From an uncultured Lachnospiraceae bacterium (GTDB taxonomy: Bacteria > Bacillota > Clostridia > Lachnospirales > Lachnospiraceae), in assembly GCA_947169935.1 (NCBI GenBank), contig CAMVRS010000012.1, positions 1 to 39,539 on the forward strand: DNA of 39,539 nt, given 5' to 3'. The position numbers were made by a program, and so were the translations under genes. The notes under the pieces are model-generated. The model worked only from the letters and a program-made list of their open reading frames with translations, was not told the origin of the DNA and did no database searches. Below are positions 1-27,316 of the stretch, piece after piece. Every line of letters begins with the position of its first letter. Within the stretch, counting starts at the first letter, position 1.

Positions 1-613
1 CTTTTGTTTGAATATTCTCACTAATTATAGATATACATTTAATCCCCAATGCCTGTATTCGTCCTCCACCTGAAGCAACTATTTTTCCATCTGAATTATA
101 CGCAACAGAATTTGTGGTAACATCAATCCCATCATTATAATTATTTCTTACAATCATAATGTGACTAGATGAATCAAACAACCAAGACGGCAACGTATAT
201 TCAGCAAGAATCTCTATAGCATGATCCATATCAACATAAAACCTATTTGAGGGCCATTTCTCTGAATAGACAGCCGATATTTCAGGGTAGTCATCTATAT
301 CCTCGGTTTTCAGTCCACCTATAACCATTCGTATAATGGGTAAACATATTATTCCAGCGAATATAAGAATACACCCCAAAATAATCAATGGTATCAAAAC
401 TCCGGATTTTGACTTACTCGTCTTCGTATAGTTTTGTATCTGAGATTGGGTTGCTTGGTTAAAATATTGCGATTGTCCAGCGTTACTATTCACATTGCCA
501 TACACTTGTTGATTCTGAGGGTTATTCATATTGGGAGCAACTATGGCACTCCCGCAATTCGTACAAAATTGAGAATCATCCGGTATTTCTTTTCCACATT
601 TTCTGCAAAACAT
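1..613 (-). CDS. Zinc-ribbon single-pass membrane protein, C-terminus cut by window edge
   Basis: The reading frame is open from an ATG at 613 to base 1, giving 204 codons with no stop, so the C-terminus lies outside the window. The N-terminus has a zinc-ribbon motif of two CxxC pairs (MFCRKCGKEI, then FCTNCGS). A Gln/Asn-rich linker and one membrane segment (about residues 70-92, VLIPLIILGCILIFAGIIC) follow, then a domain presumably outside the membrane that I do not recognise. A GGAG sits about 12 nt upstream of the ATG. The architecture (zinc_ribbon_2, linker, TM, extracytoplasmic domain) is common in Clostridia and usually of unknown function. It shares the N-terminal ribbon with the next gene and with the genes at 27317 and 29169. 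Confidence is high that this is a gene and low for any role. Confidence 0.8.
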   Translation of the reverse strand, partial: MFCRKCGKEIPDDSQFCTNCGSAIVAPNMNNPQNQQVYGNVNSNAGQSQYFNQATQSQIQNYTKTSKSKSGVLIPLIILGCILIFAGIICLPIIRMVIGGLKTEDIDDYPEISAVYSEKWPSNRFYVDMDHAIEILAEYTLPSWLFDSSSHIMIVRNNYNDGIDVTTNSVAYNSDGKIVASGGGRIQALGIKCISIISENIQTK

Positions 614-709
614 AATTCCACTCTCCATTCTTCTTTTAATCGGGTGTTAACTATATAAAGCTATAGATATTGTATTAGCATTCTCCAGATATGCAGTATC
701 TATTCAGTT

Positions 710-2638
710 TTAAAAACTGTCTATACTTGTAATTACAATATCACCATTCTTTTCTTCCATATATAACTGAATCCTCTTTTTATCTGGTTTTGTCAAACCA
801 AGCAGTTCAGATTCCAGTTCTTGTACAGCATCCGGCATGACATACATATAATAATCCAATTCCAACATATATAGGAGTGAATTTTTTCCTGCCTGCGCAT
901 AAAGATTATACTCCGTCTTGTGTTTATCCATATAATCTCCTAAATGTCTATCTGCTATATTTTGCATTGATAAACCATTATCACTTTCAAATACATCTAT
1001 CATGCCTGCCTGCGACTCCACAGATATCACAGCTTTGATTTTATTACCATCCCACACGACCTCTATAATATCATAATCCTGAAAACTCAGTTTTATAAAC
1101 ACCTGCGCTAACGAGTCAACTTTTGTTTTACATGTGTAATTATCTAAATCATCATAATCCAATGCCCAATTATATCTATTAGAAAATGATCCAAATTTCT
1201 GAAAATCAATGGAAAACCCTCTAGCAATAACATCACGAACATAATCTATATCTATTCGTTTTACAAAATCATTACCAGATAATGCACTACCATTATCTGT
1301 TATCTTTATTAAAGTATCGTAATCAAAATTACGAATTGAATCCATAAAGCTAATTGCAATATCATTTGCCTTGGTTAGTGGCAATACTCTCTCTTCCGCT
1401 TCTGTTAGCTTGCTATAATTCTTAACATTTTTCTTTTGCTCCGTCGACAAAGCATCATATTTATTCCTGATATCTTTTAATACCTGCAAGTCGCTAGAAT
1501 TTAATTTTTCAATATCTCTTATAGTATCTATGTCATTTTCGACCGATTCAATAATGGCTGCTTCAAAAGAAGATTCCGCTGCGATAAGTACTTCATAATT
1601 TGAAATCTTTTTCTTACACTTATCAGTCAATGCATCATATGATTCTCTAGCAACTTTCAGCTGCTTTTCACTATTTATTGTAATATCACCAAGATTATCT
1701 ATATTATCTTTAACATTTTTTATACTTTCTTTTTCATCTGCAGATAAAAATACATTTTTGCCGAAATAATTAATACCCTTGGATAATACTATAATTGCAA
1801 CTATAGCAATCACAGTTCCTAGTATTATCTTTTTTGTAGTTTTGCTTATTACATTATTGACAGGATCCTGACCTTTTAATATTACTTCGAGCTCTTTAAT
1901 CTGATCCGCTGAACGCCATGTTTCTTCATCTTTGTACATACACTTCGTATCAGCAGTAAACTTCCTTTCCTTAAAAAGGTCTGTTAATTGTACAACACTA
2001 TAAGGACCTTCCTTTTGCCCGCTACTTTCAATAAACCATACTGCTGGAAATTCTTTTACATTATTCTTGACTTTTTCTCTAATTCGTTCATGTACATTAT
2101 TGAATGAAATATTCTTATTTATAGCTTGTTCTACGTTAGAAGTATTTGAATTCCCCGAATGATTAATTAACCTATCCAAAAGAAGATAAAGCACCCCAGC
2201 AACCATTATAACCGTTGAGAATAATAATACAGCAAATCCACTCCCACGTGAAATATACTCTGAGTATTCAATATCATTAAACACACACAGTTTCCAAATA
2301 GAAAACGCTGTTGTTAAACCCGCAAAAATCAACATTGGAACCCTTAAGTTAAATAGTATCAACAAGCCTGTAATAGCAATAAGACCCGCTAAAATTTTGC
2401 CATCACCGCCTTCAATCAAAGCCTTTTCAATCCACAATGCTTTTACATATGGCAAAAAAAGGCTAAATATCATCAGAGCACACCCGCCCAATGCTACCCA
2501 TCTTGCTATTTTAGAACTTAATTGTGCAGAATTTCCGCTCTGTTTATTCGTCACATCAATTTCACTGAGTTTACATCCACACTTGGCACAAAAGATTGCA
2601 TCATCATTTAATTCTGCACCACACTTTAAACACTTCAT
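710..2638 (-). CDS. Large zinc-ribbon, GYF-like, multi-pass membrane protein
   Basis: A 642-residue protein with a good site (TAGGAGGATAGT) before the ATG. In order: a zinc ribbon at residues 1-25 (MKCLKCGAEL, FCAKCGCKL); three or four hydrophobic segments at about 45-155; a GYF_2/DUF4339-like segment at about 200-250 (VWFIESSGQKEGPYSVVQL and a later TW); a further TM at about 270-290. Two copies of a Firmicute surface-protein repeat of the form YDALT..-KK.-NY..L..AE follow at about 330-420 (YDALTDKCKKKISNYEVL and YDALSTEQKKNVKNYSKL). The C-terminal region of about 220 residues is unrecognised. It lies 75 nt downstream of the riboswitch-controlled HTH gene on the same strand and may be read with it, although I cannot exclude a promoter in the gap. 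Its function is unknown; an envelope-anchored or sensory role is a guess. Confidence 0.85.
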   Translation of the reverse strand: MKCLKCGAELNDDAIFCAKCGCKLSEIDVTNKQSGNSAQLSSKIARWVALGGCALMIFSLFLPYVKALWIEKALIEGGDGKILAGLIAITGLLILFNLRVPMLIFAGLTTAFSIWKLCVFNDIEYSEYISRGSGFAVLLFSTVIMVAGVLYLLLDRLINHSGNSNTSNVEQAINKNISFNNVHERIREKVKNNVKEFPAVWFIESSGQKEGPYSVVQLTDLFKERKFTADTKCMYKDEETWRSADQIKELEVILKGQDPVNNVISKTTKKIILGTVIAIVAIIVLSKGINYFGKNVFLSADEKESIKNVKDNIDNLGDITINSEKQLKVARESYDALTDKCKKKISNYEVLIAAESSFEAAIIESVENDIDTIRDIEKLNSSDLQVLKDIRNKYDALSTEQKKNVKNYSKLTEAEERVLPLTKANDIAISFMDSIRNFDYDTLIKITDNGSALSGNDFVKRIDIDYVRDVIARGFSIDFQKFGSFSNRYNWALDYDDLDNYTCKTKVDSLAQVFIKLSFQDYDIIEVVWDGNKIKAVISVESQAGMIDVFESDNGLSMQNIADRHLGDYMDKHKTEYNLYAQAGKNSLLYMLELDYYMYVMPDAVQELESELLGLTKPDKKRIQLYMEEKNGDIVITSIDSF

Positions 2639-2713
2639 ATACTATCCTCCTACGTTTCTCTATCCATTTACGCTATTTGTATACACATGACAATCTTAAT
2701 GCATTAACTCTTA

Positions 2714-2920
2714 TTACTCTTCTTTCTTCTTCCGCCAATTCCTATACTGCCCAGTCGTTATTCTGCCATCTACCGGCCGTTCCACATCAACCGGTATCGC
2801 CCAGCATGTTCCAAACTTGGTCACTCCCGGTAATATCCCATCCTCACACATCTTCTGTACCCGCCTTGTAGTCAATCCCCATTTCTCCGCAGTCTCCTGT
2901 ACTGTTGCGTATCCTTCCAT
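2714..2920 (-). CDS. Small excisionase/MerR-like helix-turn-helix protein
   Basis: A 68-residue protein starting MEGYATVQET. It matches the short excisionase-like HTH proteins common in Clostridia: a helix-turn-helix at about residues 5-30 (TVQETAEKWGLTTRRVQKMC), then a wing with the typical GVTKFGTCWAIPVDVERP. I chose the ATG at 2920 because AGAGG lies 5 nt before it; an in-frame GTG two codons upstream overlaps that site. It is the first gene after a c-di-GMP-I riboswitch and an intrinsic terminator, so its expression is probably set by transcription read-through. Relatives act as recombination directionality factors or small regulators. No integrase is visible here, so calling it a true Xis is inference. 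Confidence 0.85.
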   Translation of the reverse strand: MEGYATVQETAEKWGLTTRRVQKMCEDGILPGVTKFGTCWAIPVDVERPVDGRITTGQYRNWRKKKEE

Positions 2921-2943
2921 AAACACCTCTTTCTTTCATAAAC

Positions 2944-2970
2944 AAAAAAGCATCTGATTCTGCCAGATGC
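2944..2970 (-). terminator. Intrinsic terminator of the riboswitch expression platform
   Basis: On the minus strand, GCATCTG (2970-2964) and CAGATGC (2956-2950) form a perfect 7-bp stem with a 7-nt loop, followed at once by six T (2949-2944). It lies between the aptamer and the HTH gene's ribosome site. This is the standard layout of a transcription-control riboswitch. Confidence 0.85.
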
Positions 2971-2973
2971 TCC

Positions 2974-3048
2974 TATCCAAACTGCAACTGGCTGCCATGT
3001 TAAAGGCCCTATAGCTTTGTGTCGCAGGGTTTCCCCTGTTTTACCTAA
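2974..3048 (-). promoter_or_regulatory. Cyclic di-GMP-I (GEMM-I) riboswitch aptamer
   Basis: The minus-strand RNA shows the c-di-GMP-I signature. P2 is CAGGG (3038-3034), a GAAA tetraloop, then CCCTG (3029-3025). The conserved core GACACAAAGC (3023-3014) follows, then TATAGGGCC, and the 3' block ATGGCAGCCAGTTGC. Clostridial members typically have ACACAAAGCTA where the Vibrio type has ACGCAAAGCC. A weak, wobble-rich P1 can be drawn between TATTTAGG and TTTGGATA. The aptamer follows a consensus promoter and precedes an intrinsic terminator and an HTH gene. Whether the ligand turns the gene on or off cannot be settled by eye. Family knowledge: GEMM-I binds c-di-GMP, and examples occur in mobile elements, including a Clostridioides phage. 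Confidence 0.88.
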
Positions 3049-3081
3049 ATATGTTATTTTTATTCCACTCAACTATCTAAT

Positions 3082-3110
3082 ATTATATTCATTCGACCGC
3101 ACATTGTCAA
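3082..3110 (-). promoter_or_regulatory. Consensus sigma-A promoter for the riboswitch transcript
   Basis: On the minus strand a perfect -35 TTGACA (3110-3105), a 17-nt spacer and a perfect -10 TATAAT (3087-3082). The transcript should begin near 3075, about 25 nt before the aptamer. A fully consensus promoter implies strong constitutive initiation, leaving control to the riboswitch. Confidence 0.88.
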
Positions 3111-3122
3111 GTATTATTAGGC

Positions 3123-3150
3123 AAAAAGGGGCCGCTTTTAGGCAAGCCCC
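3123..3150 (-). terminator. Terminator at the end of the transfer operon
   Basis: Minus-strand GGGGC (3150-3146) pairs with GCCCC (3132-3128) and is followed by TTTTT (3127-3123). The hairpin includes the stop codon of the coupling-protein gene, so it closes the transfer transcript and insulates the riboswitch promoter just downstream. Confidence 0.7.
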
Positions 3151-5489
3151 ATCTGTTTTATGAAATCCTTTATCTCCTCCACATCCGAATCCTTGTTGAA
3201 CAGCCCTTTTATATCCCCTTCACCATACCCTGACATGATAAGAGGCTTTAAATATCTTACCTGCATATTGGAGAAACCGTCATTGATAAGGCTGCGTACC
3301 ACCCTGCAGCGTTCATGATATCCCGGATCTTTGCTGCTGTCTGCCTTGGGATCAGTCTTAAACTCATCCAGGCTTATCCTCTGCATCATGTTTTGTTTCT
3401 CACGGTACTTCTCGGCATTTTCATCAAGCTTCTGCCTCTCCTTTACGGATAAAACTATGTTCTCAGGCTTTGCATCCATCTTTATGGCTTCATGGTATGC
3501 CAGAGCCTCATCAACAGTGATGTGCTTTATCTCCTCTCCCATGGCTGCAAGACGCTTAGCTTCTACTCTTGCCTTATCACCGCATAAGAATACCGGTGTT
3601 ATATCCTCACGCTTTTCTTTCCTTGCTGCCTGGCGGCGCTTTGGATCATAGGGCTTGTGCTTTCGGCATAAGAGCTTTACAAAGTCCGTCCGCTCCATCC
3701 GGCACTTGGTCTGATACAGCGGCTGCGCTCCCTTTACCACGATGGCACACTCCCCGTCCTTTTTCATGGCAAAGATATCCTCTGCCGATAACAGGCTCTT
3801 CTGCATGACATCCTCAGTCTTTGAACTCGATCCCTTATGGTCTATCGAATCGGATTCACTCGCCTTATGTATCGTCTGTGTCCCGAAATGCTTTGACAGA
3901 TACTCACATGAATCCATATCGGGGGCTCCTAAAATATCTATGATCGAACAGTTACCAATAAGGTCCTTATCCATATCGAACTTCGGGAACTTACGTTTAA
4001 GCTGGATAAGGTTCTGCACGATTATCACTGCGCTCATGTTACGGCTCCTCATTGTGGATAACTTTTCCACAAATGAATCCGGCAAGGTTACATTGGCAAA
4101 CTCATCCATAAGGAAAGTCAGATGTTGCGGCAAGGTCTCATGAAGCTCCGGATCTATTGCTGTCAGATGGTACAGCTCATCAAAATACAATGAGTACACC
4201 ATTGACGGTATCCAGTCGTAATATCTCTTATCCTCACTGGTCACTATGAACAGTATCCTCTTTCCGGTGGGTGCTTCCCTGCAGGGCTTTGAATACCCGA
4301 AACTCTTTGCTATCTGTATCTCATCCTCGGATAGGAGGTCTATGACACATTCAAGCTTCATGTAGCGGCAGTGTGCATCAAGGGATGCCACTATGGATGA
4401 AGTGGTCTCAGCCGCACCGTTATAATACTTTTCAATAGCAACATATCCCGGAAAATCGGATTCCATATGCTTTTCATTCTTCCAGTAGTTCTGGGCTTTC
4501 TTTGCTATATCCAGTATCCCGCCTTCCCGGTTGTCTATGGATCCGTCCTTATTCGTATATACGCATGTGGCATCCAAAAGCTTAACAAATGTCTTCCAGT
4601 TCTGATCCTCCTTCGGATAGTAATAATGGATCAGATAGATTATACTGGTCAGCAGCACTTCAGCCGACTGCTCAAAGAACTGGTCGCTGCTCCCGTTCTC
4701 TTCGGGTGGTGTGGTGGCTTTCATAAGGATGCCTGCTATGCTCATGATATCCGATTCATTTCTTATATACTCAAACGGGTTAAAGTGTATGCTCATTGGC
4801 ATGCCGTCCTCGGATTCCACGTTCATGACCATGACCTCATATCCGTTATCTTCAAAATATTGCCCGGTCTGCTTATACAGCTCCCCCTTCGGATCCGTGA
4901 CCAGGAAGTTTCCGCAGAGCTGGGATAACATGGGTCTTGCCAGACGAAATGACTTACCGGAACCGGGAGGGCCTACCACCAGCATGTTAAGGTTGGATGT
5001 ACGCTCGTTTAAGATTGACAGATATACATCCTCCGCTATCCAGTAATTTGCCGTATTCACACTAAGCGTATGCCCCAGGTGCACATCCCCGGTATTGACC
5101 TCAACTATGTTCTTATCATCATGGTTGGCGAAGAGCTTCGTGAACTCCTTTGCATCCCCCCACTTTGCCTTTCCGAACTCCTCACCGGCAAAGGGATGCT
5201 CTATCTTTGTTATGATAACGATATATGCCATGGACCATGCCAGTACAAAGCTTAGAACGAACTTTACCGTAAAGGGTGTCACGCCTACTATGAAGTTATG
5301 CTGCTCTATGATGAAATATTCGAAATTACTGATGAACTCATCCAGGGTGTTTCCTTCCACCCATACCGCACCGATTAAGAACCCTATATAGGCACATATG
5401 ACGGTGCCTGCGCCGTATGCCAGGAGCGTTTCCTTCATGCTCCTGGTATGCTTTTTTACCGGGCTCTCCCTTGCAAATATATCTGCCAT
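3138..5489 (-). CDS. VirD4/TraG-type conjugative coupling protein (T4CP)
   Basis: 783 residues. Two N-terminal membrane segments (about 20-45 and 73-95) precede the ATPase domain. Walker A is GPPGSGKS at 173-180 and Walker B is LTFLMDE at 457-463. The context VTDPKGELY after Walker A is typical of TraG/VirD4. A charged, Lys-rich C-terminal extension of roughly 150 residues follows the ATPase core. The start has AAGAGGAGG 5 nt upstream. Coupling proteins are hexameric inner-membrane ATPases that hand the relaxase-DNA complex to the T4SS channel. It is the last gene of the transfer operon, directly after a PcfB-like gene, the usual PcfB-PcfC pairing in Gram-positive systems. Confidence 0.95.
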   Translation of the reverse strand: MADIFARESPVKKHTRSMKETLLAYGAGTVICAYIGFLIGAVWVEGNTLDEFISNFEYFIIEQHNFIVGVTPFTVKFVLSFVLAWSMAYIVIITKIEHPFAGEEFGKAKWGDAKEFTKLFANHDDKNIVEVNTGDVHLGHTLSVNTANYWIAEDVYLSILNERTSNLNMLVVGPPGSGKSFRLARPMLSQLCGNFLVTDPKGELYKQTGQYFEDNGYEVMVMNVESEDGMPMSIHFNPFEYIRNESDIMSIAGILMKATTPPEENGSSDQFFEQSAEVLLTSIIYLIHYYYPKEDQNWKTFVKLLDATCVYTNKDGSIDNREGGILDIAKKAQNYWKNEKHMESDFPGYVAIEKYYNGAAETTSSIVASLDAHCRYMKLECVIDLLSEDEIQIAKSFGYSKPCREAPTGKRILFIVTSEDKRYYDWIPSMVYSLYFDELYHLTAIDPELHETLPQHLTFLMDEFANVTLPDSFVEKLSTMRSRNMSAVIIVQNLIQLKRKFPKFDMDKDLIGNCSIIDILGAPDMDSCEYLSKHFGTQTIHKASESDSIDHKGSSSKTEDVMQKSLLSAEDIFAMKKDGECAIVVKGAQPLYQTKCRMERTDFVKLLCRKHKPYDPKRRQAARKEKREDITPVFLCGDKARVEAKRLAAMGEEIKHITVDEALAYHEAIKMDAKPENIVLSVKERQKLDENAEKYREKQNMMQRISLDEFKTDPKADSSKDPGYHERCRVVRSLINDGFSNMQVRYLKPLIMSGYGEGDIKGLFNKDSDVEEIKDFIKQMGLA

Positions 5490-5553
5490 CTGATCCTCCT
5501 CTTAGCGTTAATGCCGGGGCAGCGCAGGCCCCGGCACACATATCTCCTATCCC

Positions 5554-7008
5554 TTATCCTCTCTTTGCCGGCTTTGCTGCGGTCCGCTCAGGGCTCTGTT
5601 CCTTGCCCTTTCCTTCAATGGACTTCATGATATCCTCTCCACTGATAGTCTTTGTCCTGCCGTCAGCACTCTTATACTTATACTCGGCATCCGAGCATAT
5701 GCTCACCCTTGCCTTCTCATCATCCATGCCGATCAGCGTTATACCCTCTACAAGGCCGCCGTCCAGCTCAAGGGAGAGCTTCCTCTCCTCATCCGACATG
5801 ACACGCTCAGAGGGCACTTCCAGTGTCTTATAGAAGCTCCGCATATATCCCTGTCTCTGCTGCGCATCCTTCCTGGCCTCTTCAATAACGGCTTTTGCCT
5901 CCTCAGATATATCCTGCCCGCCTTCCTCACGGGCTGTAGTAAAATTTCTATCCGATATCCGGACATATTCCTTAAGATCATCCTCACTCTTATGTACCGT
6001 TACCTGCTGGTCTTTAAGCATCCCTGCATCTGCCAGTATCTCATTTAACATCTTATCCCAGGCATCACCTGAGACCCCCTTATCGGATACCGTCTTCAGT
6101 GCCCGGCCGCTAAGGGGATCGGATATCTCATAGAGGGAATATACCAGCCCCTTATCATCCAGCTCAAAATTCCTCTTTATTGTGAGCATCTGCCCCTCCC
6201 CGGCTTTCTGGCTGTATAAAAGCGTGCCGGATTCCGGTATGAGGGCCTTATCACGCACCGGCTTTAAGCATTCATCCACCTTACACTTCCTTACCATGCC
6301 GCAGCTCTGTGCCATTTCCATGGCACGCTCAGGATCATTTAATAGCTCCGTTCCTTCCGCCTGCTTAAGATATTCAGTGAAATCGAGCCTGTTGCCATGC
6401 TCCATCTTCTCCTTGGATTCCGATAAGAGTCCGTTGTTCTGGCTCTTTGCCTCTTCAAGGGCTTCGATCTGTTCTTTAAGCTCCTCCTTTTCCTTATCGG
6501 TCTCTGCATTATCCAGCCTGCTCTTTGTCTCATCCAGCTTTTTATCGTACTCCTTATCCTGTGCCTCTTCTCTTTCTATCCTTCTGCGCATGAAAGCTTT
6601 TATCTGCTCATCATGTATGCCGAAATCCTGGGCAGGCACAGCTACGGGGATATAGTCATCGTTTGGGTTAAGATCGGGCATTACGCAGTATCTTAAGTTG
6701 TTCTTCCTGCAGTAGTATTCGAAGGGGCTTATCATACCCTTTCCCTTTATGTCAGGATCATGAGTTATATCTATCGTCTCTTCGAATACCTCCTTTGGGA
6801 ACTCGAGTATCGGAGCCATGCCCTCGCTCACCTCCTGGATCTTCTGCCAGGAACAGCTCCCGGGCTTATCCAGCCACTTCTTATGGTTCCATTCCCCCAA
6901 TGCCTTTATGGCACTCACCATGGCTGCTATCATGGCTTTCGTTCCTTTTAAGAGGTAATATGCCCCCTTATACTCAAGATCTATCACCTGTGCTATCTCA
7001 TCTGCCAT
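5554..7008 (-). CDS. PcfB/DUF3801-like conjugation protein with long C-terminal extension
   Basis: 484 residues, with AGGAGG before the ATG. The first ~135 residues follow the plan of DUF3801/PcfB proteins: an N-terminal helix (LEYKGAYYLLKGTKAMIAAM), a middle part, then a segment like FEYYCRKNNLRYCVMPDL ending in a short basic helix (MRRRIEREEA). A highly charged coiled-coil stretch covers about 140-200. The remaining ~280 residues are not recognised and are absent from classical PcfB (around 150 residues). PcfB proteins are thought to assist the coupling protein, and the gene sits 64 nt upstream of the T4CP gene. The family call is by resemblance only and is moderate. Confidence 0.6.
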   Translation of the reverse strand: MADEIAQVIDLEYKGAYYLLKGTKAMIAAMVSAIKALGEWNHKKWLDKPGSCSWQKIQEVSEGMAPILEFPKEVFEETIDITHDPDIKGKGMISPFEYYCRKNNLRYCVMPDLNPNDDYIPVAVPAQDFGIHDEQIKAFMRRRIEREEAQDKEYDKKLDETKSRLDNAETDKEKEELKEQIEALEEAKSQNNGLLSESKEKMEHGNRLDFTEYLKQAEGTELLNDPERAMEMAQSCGMVRKCKVDECLKPVRDKALIPESGTLLYSQKAGEGQMLTIKRNFELDDKGLVYSLYEISDPLSGRALKTVSDKGVSGDAWDKMLNEILADAGMLKDQQVTVHKSEDDLKEYVRISDRNFTTAREEGGQDISEEAKAVIEEARKDAQQRQGYMRSFYKTLEVPSERVMSDEERKLSLELDGGLVEGITLIGMDDEKARVSICSDAEYKYKSADGRTKTISGEDIMKSIEGKGKEQSPERTAAKPAKRG

Positions 7009-7083
7009 CTTTTGATCCTCCTTTGTTCTGTTATCGTTTTAAAGTTCATCTTATCCTTTTGCCTCATCAGGATATCCCTCATG

Positions 7084-8139
7084 TCAGAGCCCGGCCGCGT
7101 TCATGATGGCACTGATGACCACCGTTATCAGTACCACGATAAACGTAAGGGTTAAGAACATCGTGATAAGGTGCGGCAGCATAAGGCTTGCCAGAGTATA
7201 TACGACGCTCTTTATGTGCGACATGGGGTTTAGCAACTCCGTTATCACCCTGACCACTCCGCTGTTGCCGTCATTTAATGCATCACCCGTAGACTTATCA
7301 GATCCTATCCCCCGCTCTATCTCTGCCTTGGCCCTTAACATGTTTGATACGGCTGCCTTGTTCGCCGCCATCCTGGTCTCCCTGGATATGGGCTTTTTTG
7401 TCGGCTCCCTGGTGCCGCTCATGGCGGGATCCATCTTCTTTACGGTCTTTACATCCGTTCCCGGTCGGTCCATGGAAGATGCATCATCACCGTTATCAGC
7501 ATCATATGCGCTGTTCTGTGCCTGGGACACTGTACTGTTATCGGAACTGAAACCTCCGGTGCCGGATATATTCCCGCTATCTCCCATGCCGGGGATATTC
7601 CCCATGGTACCGTTTGCTGATACTCCCGAGCTCACTGCACTGCTCTGGGATGCACCGCCCTTCTTACCCGGGATGATCAGCGGTGCGGGCTTACGCATGA
7701 TAAGGCTCTTTACCTGCTTTTTGATCCTATCAGGCTTATATCCCTTATGCCCCGGGTTCTTATATCCTCTCACCCCCCTCTGTGATCTTCGGCCGTCTCT
7801 GCGCTGTCCGTAGCCCTGGGCATATCTCTGACCATAACCCTGAGCGGATCCCTGAGCGAATCCTCTTTCGCGGCTGCCGGCTTCATGTGTGCCTGCCTTT
7901 GATCCTCTCCTGCCTGTCCCGGTCTGCTTATCCTGCTTAAGAAACTCAAGTGACTGCGGCAGCATCCCATGTCTTTCGTGCTCATAATGAAAATCCCGGC
8001 CGTCATCTTCATCATCATCCCGGCCTTTTTCAACAAAGCGCGTCACTTCACCTGCCGCAAAGCCGATCTTCGGATCCCTGAACGTGATCCCTTCAACAAA
8101 CTTTGCTCCATCATCTTTAAACCCCATATCCGCCTCCAT
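7084..8139 (-). CDS. Basic cytoplasmic protein with C-terminal membrane tail (T4SS-associated)
   Basis: 351 residues, overlapping the 3' end of virB4 by 23 nt, which suggests translational coupling. The first ~95 residues are acidic/charged. Next is a Gly/Gln/Tyr/Arg-rich tract with repeats (YGQRYAQGYGQRRDGRR), then a basic segment, a Ser/Gly-rich linker and a final hydrophobic stretch (about 315-348) forming one or two membrane helices. The protein ends right after the membrane segment. In related Firmicute elements the gene after virB4 often encodes a membrane-anchored peptidoglycan hydrolase with this cytoplasmic-basic-TM layout. Here no hydrolase domain follows, so it is either a different protein or one lacking its catalytic half. 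I do not recognise a defined family. Confidence 0.7.
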   Translation of the reverse strand: MEADMGFKDDGAKFVEGITFRDPKIGFAAGEVTRFVEKGRDDDEDDGRDFHYEHERHGMLPQSLEFLKQDKQTGTGRRGSKAGTHEAGSRERGFAQGSAQGYGQRYAQGYGQRRDGRRSQRGVRGYKNPGHKGYKPDRIKKQVKSLIMRKPAPLIIPGKKGGASQSSAVSSGVSANGTMGNIPGMGDSGNISGTGGFSSDNSTVSQAQNSAYDADNGDDASSMDRPGTDVKTVKKMDPAMSGTREPTKKPISRETRMAANKAAVSNMLRAKAEIERGIGSDKSTGDALNDGNSGVVRVITELLNPMSHIKSVVYTLASLMLPHLITMFLTLTFIVVLITVVISAIMNAAGL

Positions 8140-10609
8140 CCGTATTTACGAGTGCATATATCTCCGAATCCTTGCTCATCCTCATATCAAAGGGTACGGT
8201 CACGCTGCCCATCTTAAGGAGCCCGGTGCCGCTCTCCGCATCATCCACGTAGTTGAACATGGCAGGTGAGATACCCGGCAGGAACTCCATGAGCCTCTTC
8301 TTATCCACTGATGACTGTGAGAGAAGTGCAAAGTATTCGGTATTTGACAGTATGGCCGATAGCTTGCCTGCAGACTCCTCGTTTAAAAGATCCGACATGT
8401 TCTGGGTTATGCCGTTTAATATCCCGCTCATCTTCCTTATCTCTTTCCAGAGCTTTAATACGAAGTTCGCCACCTGATCCACTGCCAGCAGTTCATGGAA
8501 CTCATCGATATAAAGATGCGTCCACCTGCCAGCTTTTGCATTGACCTTTATCTTGCTGCGCAGTGTCTCCATCATTATCAGCATGCTGGTGATGCGCAGG
8601 TTATCCTTAAGCCCTGCTATATCAAACGCTATCAGCCTGTTGGTAAGATCCACGTTGGTCCTGTGGTTGAAAAGGTTGAGCGATCCGTTTACAAATATCT
8701 CCATGGCTGCTGCAAGGTGGTCAGCAAGATCGGTGCCTTCATCACACAGATGCTGGTATACATCCTGCAGGGTGGGTGAGTACGCCCTTATCTGTTCTTC
8801 CTTTGAAAGGTTCTCGCATAAGTTGATCTCTGCCACTTCCGCTTTCATGAACTCGGGCACCTCATACTCCGCCTGCTTTTCGGTCTCGCCGTTAAGTCTC
8901 TTTCTCATGCTGTAGTTGGCTGAATACACCTTATCTATCACACGGTCCACCACACCCTGCTCCTCGGGATCCATGTCACGCTTAAGGAGAGATGAGATGA
9001 GCGTTAAGATAAAGTCCGCCTTCTCGGATATGATCTCACGGAGGCCCGCATAGTCCACTCCTTCAAAATCCACATCCATGGGATTAAGATAGAACTCCTT
9101 GGTGGAATCGAAGCATATGACGGTGCCGTTCATCTTCCCGACCACCTGCCCGTACTCCGACTGGGGATCGACTATCAGTATCTGGTCCGTAGGGTTATTG
9201 AGATACATCGATATCATCTCACTCTTTGAGAACACGCTCTTTCCGGATCCTGACTGGCCCAGTATCATGCCGTTATGGTTCTTAAGCTTCTTCTTATCGG
9301 CAAATATGGCGTTCTGTGACAGCTGGTTTATTCCGTAGTACACACCGTTCTCATCGTTTAATTCCTGCGTCTTAAACGGCATGAACATCGCAAGGCAGCT
9401 GGATGATAAGTTCACCACCCTCTTAAACTCCTGGGCGCCGTATATGAGTGCGGAGTTAAGGCCTTCCTTCTGCATGGAAAAGCAGCTCTTAAGCTCAAGG
9501 TTCTTAAGTGATGCCACGTTCTTAAGCTTCTCCCTTATCCTTAGGAGCTCCTCCTTTGTATCTGCCAGAAACAGTACGAAGATGGAGCTGTTAAAATAGT
9601 GTTCATCCAGGGTATCCAGCTCCTTAATGAACTTATCCAGCTTTTCCTTTTCGTTTAAAAGTTTCTGCGATGCATCAGCCAGGTAATCGTTATGGTTTCG
9701 GTTCCTCTGCTTCTCGTTTTCTATCTTCATGCCCACAGCCATGTACTTGCGTGCCACTTCCTGCTTGAAAGCCGCTATCTCCAACAGCTCGTTATTTACC
9801 GTTACATAGCTGGTGCAGTTAAGCTTTGAGAGTGCCGTCACGATATCCGACTCAAGGACCTTGGGATATTTATCTATATACATGACCATCCCGTAGCTTT
9901 CGTTCAGAACGAAATAGTCATTATCGAACTCAACCGCTGCAGGGGATATGATGTTAAGAAAATCCGCTCCGGCGGCTATGGCATCCGCATACTTAAACTT
10001 GTATCCGCTGTTAAGCCCCGTATGGGTGAAGTTATATATGAGCTGCATCCTCTCATCTATGGTGAGCGTCTTCATGGACGAGCCCTGCATGCCGCTAAGG
10101 CCCAGGCCTACAAAAGCCGATCTTATGGCGCCCTCTATCGACATATATGCTGCCTTTGCATCCTTCATATCCTCCGCTTTTACGGTGAGCGTCAGATAGA
10201 TGCTCTGATAGAGCCCCTGCTTTGCATCGGAGATCTTATCCCCGATGATTCGGTTAAAGCAGTCCCTTAACCTGTCATCCTCATCACCGTGCTTTCTGTA
10301 GAGTATCCTCTCATTAAAGCCGCCCTCATCAACATGTTCATTGGCTATAGAGTATGAGAACCTGCAGGGGATGCCCTTTAAGACCTTTGAAAAGCTCACT
10401 ATTATAGCTTTCTGTTCTTCATCGGTCACCCCGGCAAAATTGATATCGCTCAGCATATATGTCTTTGAATACTTACCGCCCGGCAGAGCGAATATCCCGC
10501 TCTCATCTATGGCCTCGACCGGAAAGATATCCTGTACGCTGGTGATTTCCTCCTTTACCGGAGCATCATATATCTTTGTGGTTTCATATTTCGTTTTGAT
10601 CAGAGACAT
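8117..10609 (-). CDS. VirB4-like T4SS ATPase
   Basis: 830 residues. The N-terminal VirB4/CagE domain covers about 1-420, with the family-typical block EFDNDYFVLNESYGMVMYID near 227-246. The ATPase domain has Walker A GQSGSGKS at 451-458 and Walker B LYIDEFHE at 699-706, with VDPQSEYG after Walker A as in TraC/TrsE/VirB4 proteins. VirB4 is the one universal T4SS motor, membrane-associated and needed for channel assembly and transport. It overlaps the gene before it by 26 nt and the gene after it by 23 nt, indicating a tightly coupled operon. Confidence 0.95.
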   Translation of the reverse strand: MSLIKTKYETTKIYDAPVKEEITSVQDIFPVEAIDESGIFALPGGKYSKTYMLSDINFAGVTDEEQKAIIVSFSKVLKGIPCRFSYSIANEHVDEGGFNERILYRKHGDEDDRLRDCFNRIIGDKISDAKQGLYQSIYLTLTVKAEDMKDAKAAYMSIEGAIRSAFVGLGLSGMQGSSMKTLTIDERMQLIYNFTHTGLNSGYKFKYADAIAAGADFLNIISPAAVEFDNDYFVLNESYGMVMYIDKYPKVLESDIVTALSKLNCTSYVTVNNELLEIAAFKQEVARKYMAVGMKIENEKQRNRNHNDYLADASQKLLNEKEKLDKFIKELDTLDEHYFNSSIFVLFLADTKEELLRIREKLKNVASLKNLELKSCFSMQKEGLNSALIYGAQEFKRVVNLSSSCLAMFMPFKTQELNDENGVYYGINQLSQNAIFADKKKLKNHNGMILGQSGSGKSVFSKSEMISMYLNNPTDQILIVDPQSEYGQVVGKMNGTVICFDSTKEFYLNPMDVDFEGVDYAGLREIISEKADFILTLISSLLKRDMDPEEQGVVDRVIDKVYSANYSMRKRLNGETEKQAEYEVPEFMKAEVAEINLCENLSKEEQIRAYSPTLQDVYQHLCDEGTDLADHLAAAMEIFVNGSLNLFNHRTNVDLTNRLIAFDIAGLKDNLRITSMLIMMETLRSKIKVNAKAGRWTHLYIDEFHELLAVDQVANFVLKLWKEIRKMSGILNGITQNMSDLLNEESAGKLSAILSNTEYFALLSQSSVDKKRLMEFLPGISPAMFNYVDDAESGTGLLKMGSVTVPFDMRMSKDSEIYALVNTDGGGYGV

Positions 10610-11669
10610 CTGTTTTCCTCCTAAGTATCAGATCCATGGTCTTTATGCTCACGTTCCTTAGGTTGCGGTACGTAAACATCCCAAAAGTCGTCTGTGATAA
10701 AAAGCTCTCCCTCTGTGCCCCGAACACCGGTGCCAGTAAAAAGCCAGCATCCGAATAAGCCTTTGTAACCTTTTTCGTAAGATCCTGCATGTTTCCTTCC
10801 GTGGTGCATATGAAAGAGAGCTGTCCCGATATGTTCATAAAAGGTATGACGCTGTCATCTCCTATCTCAGCCGAATACCTCTTTTCAAGGGTCCTTATAT
10901 AGTCAGCCCTGTCCTCATCACTTATCCCCACAATGTCAAACGACATATATACACGGCAGCCATCCTCTCTCAATACCGAAAAGATATCTGCGGCAAGTGT
11001 AGGGGGATATTCCATAAAGAAGAAGCTTTTGGCATATCTGTCATCCATGCATAGATGTGCCCTCTCCTCTTTTATCTGCGGTGCCATCTCCTTGAGCAGA
11101 TCCTTCTTTGACTTTATAAAGGCCTTATGATCGAACTTATCACACTCCCCCTTAAGATGGGCCGTGATGACATCCGCTGCTTCATCAAAGCTTAATGCCT
11201 CTATGCCGATAAGCTCCTTAAGTACTTTTTCATCCTCCTCGAACTGCTCCTGGATGAGCTTATATACATCACCTTCCGCTGTAAGTGTGATGAAATACTC
11301 ATCATCTTCCTCCCTGCCGCATATGCAGTGTGTGATGCGCATCTTCGACTTTATCCTGCCAACAGCGTCCACGGCTTTATCAACACCTCCGTTCACCTTA
11401 TAGATCCTTATCCATCTGTTTCCGTCAAAACGGAAGGCTCCGGCAGGATCGAAGAATATGAGGCCCATACTCTTTAATGTCCTTTTTGGTGCAGGTATCA
11501 GGAGCTTGTTTGCCTCCTTTATCACACGCTTCCTTATCTTTTCAGCTTTCCTCTGCGCTTTTTTCTCTGCCTTCTTCTGCGCACGCTCCGCTTTCTTCTT
11601 TTCCCTGAGCGCTGCCTTCTCCTCTCTGCTCAACTTTTCTTTCTTTCTGGTCTTTTCCTTGTTTTTCAT
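10584..11669 (-). CDS. VirB4 N-terminal-domain paralogue lacking the ATPase
   Basis: 361 residues. The first ~50 residues are extremely Lys/Glu-rich (KEKLSREEKAALREKKKAER) and probably a long charged helix. The rest resembles the N-terminal half of VirB4: HLCMDDRYAKSFFFMEYPPT, then a short domain with ISDEDRADYIRTLEKRYSAE, near the place where VirB4 has its 'YFVLNESYGMVMYIDKYP' block. It ends with FLLAPVFGAQRESFLSQTTF, close in style to the pre-ATPase part of VirB4, and no Walker motifs follow. It overlaps the true virB4 start by 26 nt. It could be a structural subunit derived from VirB4 by duplication. The homology is judged by eye and needs a profile search. Confidence 0.7.
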   Translation of the reverse strand: MKNKEKTRKKEKLSREEKAALREKKKAERAQKKAEKKAQRKAEKIRKRVIKEANKLLIPAPKRTLKSMGLIFFDPAGAFRFDGNRWIRIYKVNGGVDKAVDAVGRIKSKMRITHCICGREEDDEYFITLTAEGDVYKLIQEQFEEDEKVLKELIGIEALSFDEAADVITAHLKGECDKFDHKAFIKSKKDLLKEMAPQIKEERAHLCMDDRYAKSFFFMEYPPTLAADIFSVLREDGCRVYMSFDIVGISDEDRADYIRTLEKRYSAEIGDDSVIPFMNISGQLSFICTTEGNMQDLTKKVTKAYSDAGFLLAPVFGAQRESFLSQTTFGMFTYRNLRNVSIKTMDLILRRKTDVSDQNEI

Positions 11670-11704
11670 GATCCCTCCTTATCTTTTGTCTGCCTCCGGC
11701 GCAT

Positions 11705-11878
11705 TTACTGTCCATCCGGAGAGCCGAAACACAGCTTAAGTATCAAATGCCCGGCCACTGATGCGGCTACTGTGATCAGAAAGAGCATGCTCATGATGAG
11801 CTCCACGGCAGACATGCCTTCCGATATCCCTGCTCCTAAAGCTGACTGCTTATACATATTTGTGATCCTCTTATCCAT
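11705..11878 (-). CDS. 57-residue prepilin-like single-pass membrane protein
   Basis: Translated from an ATG at 11878 with AAAGGAGG upstream; 57 residues ending before TAA at 11705. A 21-residue basic/polar leader ends in Gly, followed by MSAVEL and a hydrophobic run of about 20 residues (IMSMLFLITVAASVAGHLIL). Gly at -1 and Glu at +5 before the hydrophobic helix is the type IV/Flp prepilin rule (G|xxxxE), and 50-60 residues is the normal Flp pilin size. A CpaF-family ATPase is encoded at 19681. It may equally be a VirB2- or VirB3-like T4SS subunit. The coding call is firm; the prepilin call is tentative. Confidence 0.7.
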   Translation of the reverse strand: MDKRITNMYKQSALGAGISEGMSAVELIMSMLFLITVAASVAGHLILKLCFGSPDGQ

Positions 11879-12077
11879 CCGCATCCTCCTTTCGCTGGAC
11901 TGCCTGAAACTTTCCTTCGAAATATATGTAGGACAGGAATGATGCTATTCCGTAACACGCGGGGTGATATAAGTGACTCTTTTCGTTATCACGTGTCCGT
12001 GGTAAAATTAACGTAGTGCTTAAAATAAGCTTTGGGAAACACAGATGATGAGGCTGCCTTGACATGTCGCACAGCAA
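11871..12077 (-). pseudogene. Possible 3' remnant of a transfer gene at the cargo junction
   Basis: A frame ends at TAA 11873-11871, sharing ATGGATAA with the start of the prepilin-like gene, as in coupled operon genes. Its last ~35 residues look like real protein (a short hydrophobic run, then YIYFEGKFQAVQRKEDADG), but upstream the frame becomes Pro/Arg-rich and unlike protein, with no ribosome site near an ATG. I read this as the tail of a transfer gene whose 5' part was lost or displaced when the plus-strand cargo block was inserted. The evidence is only composition and the overlap, so confidence is low. Confidence 0.35.
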
Positions 12078-12393: not shown

Positions 12394-13770
12394 ATGGAAA
12401 CATTCTTTTTTGTGGCAAAGAAAATCATTCAATGTTGTTTTATAGCATATTTTACTGTTTTCTTTTATCTCTCATTAAAAAAATGCTTTCTCAAAGATAA
12501 AAGTAAGGTTAAGCTATTCGTTTTATCTCTGATCACAGGTCCATTTCTGTCATATATTGAGGCGTGCTGTCTTTCATCTTGTATAGTGAGGGTGATAAAT
12601 CCAGAGATGTTCTTTAATATAAACAATAAGAGAGCATCCGCAGAAAAATATATTTTTGTATTATGCCTTATTATTGCTGTCGCATTCCTGTTGATAAATC
12701 TTTTATATGCATGGCTGCTGGGAAAATGGCTTGAGACAGGCACAAAATCATCGGTTGTATATCTGTATCTGATGTTCAACACGCTGGCTATAATGCTGCA
12801 GACACCTACGGGCACAGGTATGATGTTCTCCGTTCCATATCTCAGAGATATCGTTGACATTGCCGGGAACCTGTCCCTGCTTTTGGCAGCGTGGCTGTTT
12901 TACCGCCATGACATAAGAATGTTTTCTAAAATAGCGCGTACGGATATAAAGGTGGATTGGAGATTATTTAACATCCCACCGGCAGTTTTTATTCTGCTGT
13001 ATACATTTTATGTTGCAGAACTCGGAATTGCTGTTGATCCGGAAGGTGTTTATCCGGTAGGTGATGATCTGGTACTCGCAATTTATATTTTTTCGACAAT
13101 TATAATGTACCTTTTCATATGGGCATTTTATGTGATCATTAAAAACTTATCAGCAACGAATGAAGCTATCAAGGCAAAGGATGAAGTAAAAACGCTCTCC
13201 GTTGAGGTCATGGAAGCTCTTGCTCATACGATAGATGCAAAGGATGAATATACAAGAGGTCATTCCGTAAGAGTTGCAAAATACTCAAGAATGATGGCTG
13301 AGCGGCTCGGACTTTCCCCTGAAGAATGTGAAAATGTATATTATATGGCACTTTTGCATGATATCGGAAAGATCGGCGTACCAAATGAGATCATAAACAG
13401 CAAGGATAAATTGACGGATGAAGAGTATACTGTTATCAAGACACATCCCGGACTTGGTTATGATATCCTGGCAGAGATAAAGAGTCGCCCAGATCTATCG
13501 ATAGGTGCGAGATGGCATCATGAAAGGTTTGATGGTAAGGGATATCCCGATGGCAAGAAAGGCGATGAGATACCCTTTTACGCAAGGATCATAGCTGTTG
13601 CGGACAGCTATGATGCTATGACATCCAACCGAAGCTACCGTGACTATCTGCCACAGGAAAAGGTCCGGTCTGAGATCAAAAATAATATGGGGACTCAGTT
13701 TGATCCCGATGTTGCAAGATGTATGCTTGCGATCATCGATGAAGATAAAGAATATGAGCTACATGAATAA
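12394..13770 (+). CDS. Membrane-bound HD-GYP domain protein, probable c-di-GMP phosphodiesterase
   Basis: 458 residues. About seven membrane helices fill residues 1-250, then a linker helix leads into a complete HD-GYP domain (about 270-450). The catalytic HD pair is in HDIGK at 322-326, the GYP triplet is at 383-385 (FDGKGYPDG), and the usual HP (THPGLGYDIL), HH (RWHHERF) and DSYDAMTSNR..YR motifs are present. HD-GYP enzymes hydrolyse c-di-GMP to pGpG and/or GMP using two or three metal ions. All expected ligand motifs are present, so activity is likely. The N-terminal sensor is not one I recognise. It is the only visible c-di-GMP enzyme in the window, which also contains a c-di-GMP riboswitch about 10 kb away. 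Confidence 0.93.
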   Translation: METFFFVAKKIIQCCFIAYFTVFFYLSLKKCFLKDKSKVKLFVLSLITGPFLSYIEACCLSSCIVRVINPEMFFNINNKRASAEKYIFVLCLIIAVAFLLINLLYAWLLGKWLETGTKSSVVYLYLMFNTLAIMLQTPTGTGMMFSVPYLRDIVDIAGNLSLLLAAWLFYRHDIRMFSKIARTDIKVDWRLFNIPPAVFILLYTFYVAELGIAVDPEGVYPVGDDLVLAIYIFSTIIMYLFIWAFYVIIKNLSATNEAIKAKDEVKTLSVEVMEALAHTIDAKDEYTRGHSVRVAKYSRMMAERLGLSPEECENVYYMALLHDIGKIGVPNEIINSKDKLTDEEYTVIKTHPGLGYDILAEIKSRPDLSIGARWHHERFDGKGYPDGKKGDEIPFYARIIAVADSYDAMTSNRSYRDYLPQEKVRSEIKNNMGTQFDPDVARCMLAIIDEDKEYELHE

Positions 13771-15901: not shown

Positions 15902-17311
15902 CTAAAAATCTTCTTCTTCGTAATAAGATACAGGGTTATAGTCTGATACTCCGTTTAGAGCTGGAGCGGATCTTGTTGAGTATAAAAAGCGGTTGCGGAA
16001 GTGTTCAAAATTTCTAAAGCCTCTGCCCAGGCGTTTAAGATCTTTTATCTTCCTGTTAATTGATTCTATTGGGCCATTAGATAGTCGACTGTCGTAGATT
16101 TTTCCATTTCCGATTTTTTCGACCATTATGAATGAATTGATTATGGGATCCTCATATTTAATCAGAAGTGAGGCATAATCGCGGAAAATTTCATGCCTGG
16201 AACTTCCGAATTCTTTTATAAGGACAGATAATTCATGCCTTGCGGCATGAGGATTCCCACTGTTGCGGGAATTGAATTGTATGTATTTTTCCTTTAGTTC
16301 CCTGAAGTCTCTAAGGTTCGGATCTATCCGGAAAAGTGCATCTTCATAATCGTATGTATTCATAAGGCGGTGGAAATGCTGATCCATACGAAGATCATGA
16401 TGGTAATGGATATTTGACTGGTTTGTAAGGATAAGCCATCTGTATTTCTGGAGAATATAGACTTCATCTGAAACAGGAAGAGAAACGGGTTCATGCCGCT
16501 CCAGGGAAAGCTTATCCTGTAGTTCACGATCACGTTGCCGATACTTTTTAAGAAGCTGTCGGATATGATTGTCGATCAGGTGAATTATCCACTGGATCAC
16601 ATGAAAGGAATCGACTACGGGAATGGCATTTGGAAAATACTTTTCAACGTAAGCGATATATGGTTTATACATATCAGATATCAGATATTTTACAGCAGCA
16701 CGTTCTTCTATAGGGATGTCTGAAAAGTATGGCTCTGTGACATTGCTTCTCCGGCTGCGCAACAGATCTATCGGATCACCAGTGTGGAAATCTTGTATGA
16801 CTAATGCGTATTTACAATAATCATCCATGTCAATACATACTTCATCGATGGAAATGGCATCTGACAAAGGAAGACGGTCAAGTTTAACATACCGGTCGAA
16901 GACTTCATGCGCATGTGAATCTGATACATGAAACTTTTTGGCAATAGAGACAGATGTTTCCATTAGATCCTTGTAAGCCATTACAATGAGCATATCGGTA
17001 GCGTTAGATGTCCGTCTGCTCTTGTTGACAAACTTAAAGCTTTCACTGATATCATAGAGACATTCTGGATTAGTGCAACGCCATCTTCTTTGCTTCAGTA
17101 TGATAATGAGAGCATAGTTATCCTGAAGGATGGGGTGATTGATCTTTCTTTTTTTCAAGCCTCTCGAATACATCCTGTAACCACAGTTAGGGCAGTAATG
17201 CGCCACAGGGGAAGTTTCAAGAGTGATGGTTTTGGTTTGTCCTTGAATCTGGGTTTCGGTAATACGTAGTTCACCATCTTCAAGGTCTAGCAAATCTGTG
17301 ATATTATTCAT
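15902..17311 (-). CDS. tnp: ISL3-family transposase
   Basis: 469 residues. The N-terminal zinc-finger region contains CPNCGYRMYSRG and a second Cys pair (RRWRCTNPEC), then an HTH-like segment (ETSVSIAKKFHVSDSHAHEV). The DDE domain begins with SIDEVCID (first Asp), then YLISDMYKPYIAYVEKYFPN (second Asp) followed by VVDSFHVIQW, and the final catalytic Glu is in SNGPIESINRKIKDLKR. This is the standard ISL3 layout and length. AAGGAGG precedes the ATG. No frameshift or stop interrupts it, so the enzyme is probably active. Confidence 0.96.
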   Translation of the reverse strand: MNNITDLLDLEDGELRITETQIQGQTKTITLETSPVAHYCPNCGYRMYSRGLKKRKINHPILQDNYALIIILKQRRWRCTNPECLYDISESFKFVNKSRRTSNATDMLIVMAYKDLMETSVSIAKKFHVSDSHAHEVFDRYVKLDRLPLSDAISIDEVCIDMDDYCKYALVIQDFHTGDPIDLLRSRRSNVTEPYFSDIPIEERAAVKYLISDMYKPYIAYVEKYFPNAIPVVDSFHVIQWIIHLIDNHIRQLLKKYRQRDRELQDKLSLERHEPVSLPVSDEVYILQKYRWLILTNQSNIHYHHDLRMDQHFHRLMNTYDYEDALFRIDPNLRDFRELKEKYIQFNSRNSGNPHAARHELSVLIKEFGSSRHEIFRDYASLLIKYEDPIINSFIMVEKIGNGKIYDSRLSNGPIESINRKIKDLKRLGRGFRNFEHFRNRFLYSTRSAPALNGVSDYNPVSYYEEEDF

Positions 17312-27092: not shown

Positions 27093-27316
27093 GTCCTCCT
27101 CCTTTCCGCTGCTTCCTTTTCCTCTCATTAAGTTAGTGGGACATGTAACGCGCTAATCCGAAATGTGGGGAATACCGGTCTCTGATGATCCCGGTAGGGG
27201 CCACAATGTGTCATATCGAGCATGAAAAAAAAAAAAATCGTCATGAATAAGGATGTTCGTTGCCAAAATGTGAGATAGAATTATTAAAAATCTATACTTT
27301 ATGGGAGAGTCCTATT

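Follow-up and report, generated by a model that had tools for sequence, protein, structure and literature searches.

A GEMM-I riboswitch and a putative c-di-GMP-repressed HTH/zinc-ribbon operon in a conjugative element of Lachnospiraceae

In the genome of an uncultured Lachnospiraceae bacterium, we found a c-di-GMP-I (GEMM-I) riboswitch followed by genes for a small winged-helix protein (HTH) and a zinc-ribbon membrane protein. These elements probably constitute a c-di-GMP-repressed envelope operon, which is carried as cargo by a conjugative element. The window, by which we mean the whole stretch of DNA analysed (39,539 nucleotides), is the entire contig C12 of this genome (306 contigs, 4.21 Mb). 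The relevant features are summarized in Table 1.

Table 1. Features at the riboswitch locus of the window
Feature	Position	Strand	Evidence
traG/virD4-type coupling protein, 783 aa	3138..5489	-	NCBIfam NF045973 CD1115 family, 279 bits (cut-off 250); Pfam PF02534
Terminator-like hairpin overlapping the traG end	3128..3150	-	GGGGCTTGCCTAAAAGCGGCCCC then TTTTT, -12.0 kcal/mol
Sigma-A type promoter TTGACA-17-TATAAT	3082..3110	-	Exact match
c-di-GMP-I (GEMM-I) aptamer	2980..3055	-	RF01051, 54.7 bits, E 3.8e-08
Aptamer 3' strand GCCAGUUGC, predicted 5' half of the antiterminator	2984..2992	-	Pairs with 2970-2962
5' terminator arm GCAUCUGGC, also predicted to be the 3' half of the antiterminator	2962..2970	-	
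Intrinsic terminator of the riboswitch, GAGCATCTGGCAGAATCAGATGCTT with T-run	2944..2972	-	-12.0 kcal/mol
HTH gene, winged-helix, 68 codons and stop	2714..2920	-	HTH_17 below the Pfam cut-off; AlphaFold model
Second gene of the putative operon: membrane protein of 642 aa with GYF_2 and a zinc ribbon at its N-terminus	710..2638	-	PF13240, PF14237
Further protein, first 204 residues, starting with a zinc ribbon (by eye); gene cut by the contig end	1..613	-	

According to our proposal, RNA polymerase would start at the consensus promoter and transcribe the GEMM-I leader. At low c-di-GMP levels, the aptamer strand GCCAGUUGC would pair with GCAUCUGGC, the terminator would come too late and the genes for the HTH and the zinc-ribbon/GYF membrane protein would be transcribed in this antiterminated state. 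At high c-di-GMP levels, the ligand-bound aptamer would retain its 3' strand, so that GCAUCUGGC could fold into the terminator and the operon would be off. The unit would be of the same kind as the GEMM-I-HTH operons found elsewhere in the genus, placed here in the slot between traG and virB2.

Aptamer, promoter and predicted expression platform

The initial annotation had postulated a GEMM-I riboswitch at this locus, and the covariance-model search confirmed this claim. RF01051 was the only Rfam family matched within the window, and the match covered the full length of the model (positions 1-87 of 87) with 54.7 bits at a gathering score of 35. With such a match the assignment to this riboswitch class is convincing. 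The aptamer keeps the G at model position 11, the CAAA and the C of GUUGC, and these residues should correspond to the ligand-contacting G20, A47 and C92 of Vc2. G20 of Vc2 distinguishes c-di-GMP from cGAMP types. The strand GCCAGUUGC presumably includes the ligand-contacting C of Vc2, and binding of c-di-GMP by the window aptamer appears probable. At the base of the first hairpin, a U-A replaces the consensus C-G, which is a compensated change. This change is common to the window aptamer and the HTH-linked aptamers of C42 (same genome) and G017, and it is also present in three aptamers that have no HTH link (L111, L112, L114). Four other aptamers (L020, L040, L076, L108) carry an A instead of the G at the ligand-facing position (AGCAAA), presumably the change of the cGAMP-type GEMM-Ib; L040 is an HTH locus with an EAL gene behind.

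The promoter had been described as perfect, and TTGACA-17-TATAAT was indeed found without any mismatch. It was the sole match at up to one mismatch, a level at which 0.52 matches are expected and at least one was present in 39 of 100 shuffles. Scanning of positions 500-3300 yielded 14 promoter-like sites (13.0 expected), among which this site was the only one with 12 of 12 matching bases, and two terminator-like sites (0.7 expected). The best promoter-like sites preceding the GEMM-I of C42, G017, G011 and G001 and those of G071, G153, G162 and G335 also have 17-nt spacers and 10-12 of 12 matching bases, these values being raw scores without chance control. The remaining structural predictions for this locus held as well: the intrinsic terminator is a hairpin with a T-run at -12.0 kcal/mol, and the HTH gene consists of 68 codons and a stop.

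The duplex of GCCAGUUGC and GCAUCUGGC was calculated at -14.5 kcal/mol, compared with -9.0 kcal/mol (sd 2.7) for shuffled sequences, 9 of 300 being as good. It is predicted to be mutually exclusive with the terminator and to use the aptamer strand. When folding of the growing transcript was modeled, the antiterminator GCCAG:CUGGC had a probability of about 1 in transcripts of 96-104 nt, and the terminator predominated (0.99) at 108 nt and more. Since the terminator wins in the full transcript, the ON state requires kinetic trapping. Enforcing the hand-drawn aptamer pairs while the terminator was incomplete cost 5.1 kcal/mol, which, we infer, tight ligand binding can pay. Because ligand and antiterminator compete for the same aptamer strand, c-di-GMP should terminate transcription, and the expression platform of the window is predicted to be an OFF switch.

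The genes behind the terminator were searched for signs of separate transcription. The HTH gene and the 642-aa gene are 75 nt apart, and neither a terminator nor a promoter-like site was found between them in the scan of positions 500-3300. This finding supports the suggestion of the initial annotation that the riboswitch controls the zinc-ribbon/GYF protein behind the HTH, and the two genes are probably cotranscribed. It also bears on the opposite sign of regulation, in which c-di-GMP raises expression or turns off an HTH repressor, so that surface genes with promoters of their own are derepressed. As a rule, c-di-GMP raises adhesion genes, and in G017 a hairpin with T-run and a TATAAT lie in the 244 nt that separate the HTH gene from a Big_2 gene (seen by eye; the hairpin was not listed by the terminator rule of the script), so that the HTH could be a separate unit there. 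In the window, however, the short gap lacking such sites and the pairing logic, which predicts termination with ligand, speak against this sign, and we regard it as unlikely.

Relatives of the 642-aa protein were found in only three other genomes of the 35 in the genus, and these are partial and weak. The G+C content is 0.33 at positions 1-2000 of the window, compared with 0.47-0.50 at positions 4001-12000. These genes might be an inert passenger captured from a chromosome together with a leader that has lost its response. The window aptamer has the lowest score among the five GEMM-I of its genome (54.7 vs. 55.6-62.0 bits), and the same contig carries an ISL3-family transposase and a low-G+C insert. 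On the other hand, the stem change is compensated and promoter, terminator and open frames are intact. Loss of function seems very improbable to us.

To compare expression platforms, we assembled a set of 74 GEMM-I by hand (42 of the 45 genus GEMM-I together with four from HTH loci outside the genus and 28 from family loci with high scores); the tandem pair of G020:C126 and a second site of G025:C23 were excluded, and the family loci L075 and L088 were dropped. The tandem pair (L110, G020:C126:9833-9906 and 10104-10177) has about 200 nt between its two GEMM-I. A terminator was present by the rule of the script in 53 of the 74. In this group, a pairing of -10 kcal/mol or better was obtained between the aptamer 3' strand and the 5' arm of the terminator in 21 cases, but for the 3' arm, which served as control, in only 4. 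The comparison is biased towards the 5' arm, for which a few flanking bases were included in the scoring, unlike for the 3' arm. Shuffled arms were beaten by more than 1.5 sd in 17 of the 53.

The terminator GCATCTGG was found again at eight loci. Among the 12 GEMM-I-HTH loci, an antiterminator of -10 kcal/mol or better was predicted for seven but not for four (G001, G004, G071, G162); G335 was left out of the scoring, as it has no terminator by the rule of the script, though a hairpin with T-run is visible. For G153, the aptamer strand CCAGCUGC and the terminator arm GCAUCGCUGG preserve the pairing with different letters, and the control 3' arm pairs almost equally well (-11.6 kcal/mol). A different type of terminator, CCACTTTGC..GCAAAGTGG or close to it, follows eight GEMM-I that are linked by eye to prepilin genes (L105, L106, L107, L109, L016, L020, L027, L030); its 5' arm looks complementary to the GGCAAAG core of the aptamer.

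Recurrence of the GEMM-I-HTH unit and the genes behind it

The genome of the window contains five GEMM-I and two copies of the HTH gene, both of which lie directly behind a GEMM-I. With an HTH profile of 17 rows, we found 25 places in 17 of the 35 genus genomes. Eight of them lie 55-87 nt behind a same-strand GEMM-I of the genus set: C12 and C42 of the own genome, G001:C5, G004:C70, G011:C115, G012:C32 (twice) and G017:C72. All eight are among the 12 best HTH matches (at least 98.5 bits), a ranking raised by the fact that five of them were rows of the profile. The other 17 places are unlinked, four of them (G001:C39, G005, G015, G023) being among the 12 best and 13 being weaker. We also considered a degenerate GEMM-I hidden before the HTH of these four, but no RF01051 match was detected at E values up to 1. 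The GEMM-I counts are lower bounds, as candidates were scored in part; the genus has at least 45 GEMM-I in about 108 Mb. Given 45 GEMM-I in a sequence space of this size, chance does not explain why 8 of the 25 places lie within 87 nt of one.

Outside the genus, GEMM-I-HTH pairs were found in G071, G153, G162 and G335. An Rfam scan of 31 HTH loci gave five positives, including the two of the own genome, and the G335 pair was established from the coordinates of its GEMM-I and HTH. Altogether, this amounts to at least 12 loci in 10 genomes and five genera, a lower bound for the 397 family genomes that refers to the matches listed. The loci C12, C42, G017, G011 and G012 are related, and loci sharing descent are not independent observations.

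The genes behind the units differ. Pfam searches identified a Big_2 protein of 1463 aa (G017), a Flg_new/Big_2/beta-helix protein of 1229 aa (G011), EAL/MotA_ExbB and SpaA proteins (G162) and a WYL protein (G071). Neither of the proteins that follow in C42, one a small membrane protein and the other lipoprotein-like (827 aa), has a Pfam match, and the same holds for the 626-aa protein of G335. By eye, G012 has two GEMM-I-HTH operons with 6 kb between them. The first contains a zinc-ribbon membrane protein of 152 aa, followed by a protein of 1324 aa that looks secreted, and the last protein of the second, with 1149 aa, also looks secreted. Inspection by eye also revealed an ABC transporter in G153, an 864-aa unknown protein in G004 and no gene close behind the HTH in G001. 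GEMM-I without HTH precede zinc-ribbon proteins in C189 of the own genome and in G014:C112 (both by eye), and in C57 of the own genome the protein behind such a GEMM-I looks secreted and has at least 1116 aa; in G020:C51 such a GEMM-I has a zinc-ribbon protein as a later gene (by eye). The shared theme is the cell envelope, in agreement with published GEMM-I regulons, and it does not extend to every locus: G071, G004, G335 and G001 do not fit.

The same GEMM-I-HTH pair thus heads surface-protein operons in relatives, which argues for a portable piece of the c-di-GMP network rather than for an excision switch, and the unit of the window looks like such a portable piece of the host network. A more far-reaching version, which we put forward only tentatively, is that promoter, GEMM-I and winged-helix regulator form one mobile cassette heading varied surface-protein or cargo operons, and that one such cassette was taken up by a conjugative element, the cargo of which would then be expressed only at low host c-di-GMP.

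The conjugative element and the role of the HTH protein

The gene upstream of the riboswitch-headed cargo is the T4SS gene traG. At an E value of 1e-50 or better, TraG occurs in only one of the 35 genus genomes, namely the own one. We retrieved 32 loci with TraG relatives from other contigs, mostly of Lachnospiraceae, with identities of up to 84%. The highest identity was reached in L116-L118, which belong to CD1115-family (VirD4-like) elements and share the gene order just upstream of traG, and the genes behind traG vary between L116-L119. A virB2-like gene lies downstream of traG in 23 of the 32 loci, at a distance of 74-208 bp in 13 and of 1.1-5.9 kb in 10, with four approximate distances for which the traG end was extrapolated by about 450 bp (L137-L139, L144). 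In L138 a trbL-like match precedes the virB2-like match. No virB2-like gene was found in the other nine loci, eight of which extend less than 1.9 kb beyond traG. In L142, a group II intron (4313-6916, plus strand) ends 2 nt before a traG match beginning at residue 204 and may interrupt traG.

This variable gap indicates that the slot takes cargo and that traG is not the end of the operon; judged by gene order, the traG-virB2 gap in relatives is a cargo slot. The unit had been placed directly after the terminator of the T4SS operon. A hairpin with T-run does exist at the traG end, although it is absent from the list of the stricter terminator scan, but the operon does not end there, since virB2 follows in relatives.

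As far as they were fetched, none of the 32 related traG loci holds a GEMM-I at gathering score, whereas the window has one, and we rejected the idea that the riboswitch is a conserved part of the conjugation system. In the 10 wide traG-virB2 gaps, neither HTH nor GEMM-I was found. A tblastn search (E 1e-3) detected an HTH relative in two of the 32 loci, which are cut at the flank or the contig end. In these two, L129 and L141 (L038/L141), the HTH is 58-59% identical and lies about 7.8 kb downstream of traG without a GEMM-I, which suggests some tie of the HTH family to such elements.

The window probably continues into contig C191 of the same genome. C191 has a virB2-like and a trbL-like match starting at 1595 and 1827, respectively. 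Near its start, ahead of virB2, lies a frame containing NIQTK, which are also the final residues of the cut gene of the window, and a protein of 309 aa encoded ahead of virB2 has, by eye, a zinc ribbon. The contig ends have no exact overlap, and the likely join is suggested by the short shared tail and the gene order. None of the 16 matches of PF00589/PF00239 in the own genome is on C12 or C191; an integrase is possible on a third contig, the element being incomplete here. The search for plasmid relatives of TraG gave 1195 records, none of which covers 80% of the query and all of which are below 60% identity. Defence cargo was considered and dropped: neither the HTH nor the 642-aa protein was matched by PADLOC, and the C191 zinc-ribbon protein gave weak matches (17.4 and 13.5 bits).

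Further genes were observed on the window contig. An HD-GYP protein (12394-13770, plus strand; PF13487, motifs HDIGK and HHE..GYP) is likely to be a c-di-GMP phosphodiesterase and could push the cell towards low c-di-GMP. Its gene lies within the conjugation region, in a low-G+C stretch (12-18 kb) with reversed GC skew, and no relatives were found in the 32 traG loci (tblastn E 1e-3). The same stretch contains the ISL3-family transposase (15902-17311, minus strand; NF033550, 190 bits) near a ThuA gene. Another zinc-ribbon protein without GEMM-I is encoded at 27260-28000 (plus strand; PF13240).

The initial annotation had also suggested that the riboswitch serves excision or transfer control, with c-di-GMP setting the level of an Xis-like protein and thereby excision of the element or T4SS regulation. 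The properties of the HTH protein leave room for this reading. It matches HTH_17 at E 2e-05 (25.2 bits, slightly below the Pfam cut-off of 27) and the PHROG excisionase family phrog_2655 at E 2.1e-06, although a generic HTH family scored better (1.8e-07); for the HTH of G153, the excisionase family ranks best (7.8e-11). In a single-sequence AlphaFold model (mean pLDDT 78.5), the HTH possibly has an Xis-like fold. Foldseek returned nothing at E 0.001 or better, the best matches being Xis of phage Pukovnik (0.13) and the transcription factor BldC (0.58); these matches are weak, and the likely fold (two helices, two strands and a C-terminal helix) may be shared with both. A search for solved structures by sequence gave five chance-level matches (E 0.54 or more), and the six phage records with this HTH are all below 60% identity. 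The HTH gene is situated between T4SS genes, HTH relatives lie beyond the T4SS genes of the two related elements, and in G335:C7 (L098) about 120 nt separate the end of a serine recombinase gene (PF00239/PF07508) from the GEMM-I-HTH unit behind it.

Sequence and fold do not tell an excisionase from a transcription factor, but the context favours a local regulator. No recombinase match is on C12 or C191, and the related traG loci have no GEMM-I and an HTH relative in only two cases. By eye, in the stretches read, G335 is the only locus with a recombinase adjoining the GEMM-I-HTH unit, and a T4SS gene is present at none of the other loci; this includes the second HTH copy of the own genome, which has no conjugation gene in the surrounding stretch. 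Taking context, integrase search and fold together, we rejected the excisionase reading and keep it as a rival that has little probability. The HTH heads operons with differing proteins behind, which suggests autoregulation, and we consider local (auto)regulation of the envelope operon its most likely function.

Related systems and biological meaning

GEMM-I riboswitches are known, as are OFF switches of this class, members on mobile elements (prophages of C. difficile, PMC7699646) and riboswitch-controlled operons with DNA-binding regulators (PMC6200980, PMC11477304). For C. difficile, premature termination is described as the mode of action of most type I c-di-GMP riboswitches (PMC7699646). 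The flgB operon and other GEMM-I of this organism involve the same aptamer family, and the ligand is expected to terminate transcription prematurely, as predicted for the window (PMC7699646, PMC6200980 and PMC11477304). The window differs in its gene content, the first gene encoding a lone winged-helix protein that is followed by zinc-ribbon membrane proteins within a conjugative element. Cdi1_4 and Cdi1_5, which reside in the prophages phiCD630-1 and -2, are likewise GEMM-I on mobile elements; as described in PMC7699646, the downstream transcript was lower at high c-di-GMP, although an earlier report noted there had found both insensitive. Downstream of these two riboswitches lie antitoxin RNAs that belong to type I toxin-antitoxin pairs, whereas the window has a putative protein-coding cargo operon in a T4SS locus. 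The cmrRST operon of C. difficile is also headed by a c-di-GMP riboswitch and contains DNA-binding regulators (PMC6200980 and PMC11477304), but it involves a c-di-GMP-II aptamer and response regulators instead of a GEMM-I and a small winged-helix HTH. Among the open-access titles and abstract openings listed, a partial selection, none reported a conjugative element with a GEMM-I in its cargo, or a GEMM-I combined with such an HTH.

For the element family, the traG-virB2 gap provides a defined site for cargo searches, and the role of the HTH, as autoregulator of surface operons or otherwise, is directly testable. If our proposal is true, Lachnospiraceae have a recurring unit of GEMM-I and winged-helix protein before adhesin-like and zinc-ribbon operons, and RNA-based control by a host second messenger would extend into the cargo of conjugative elements.
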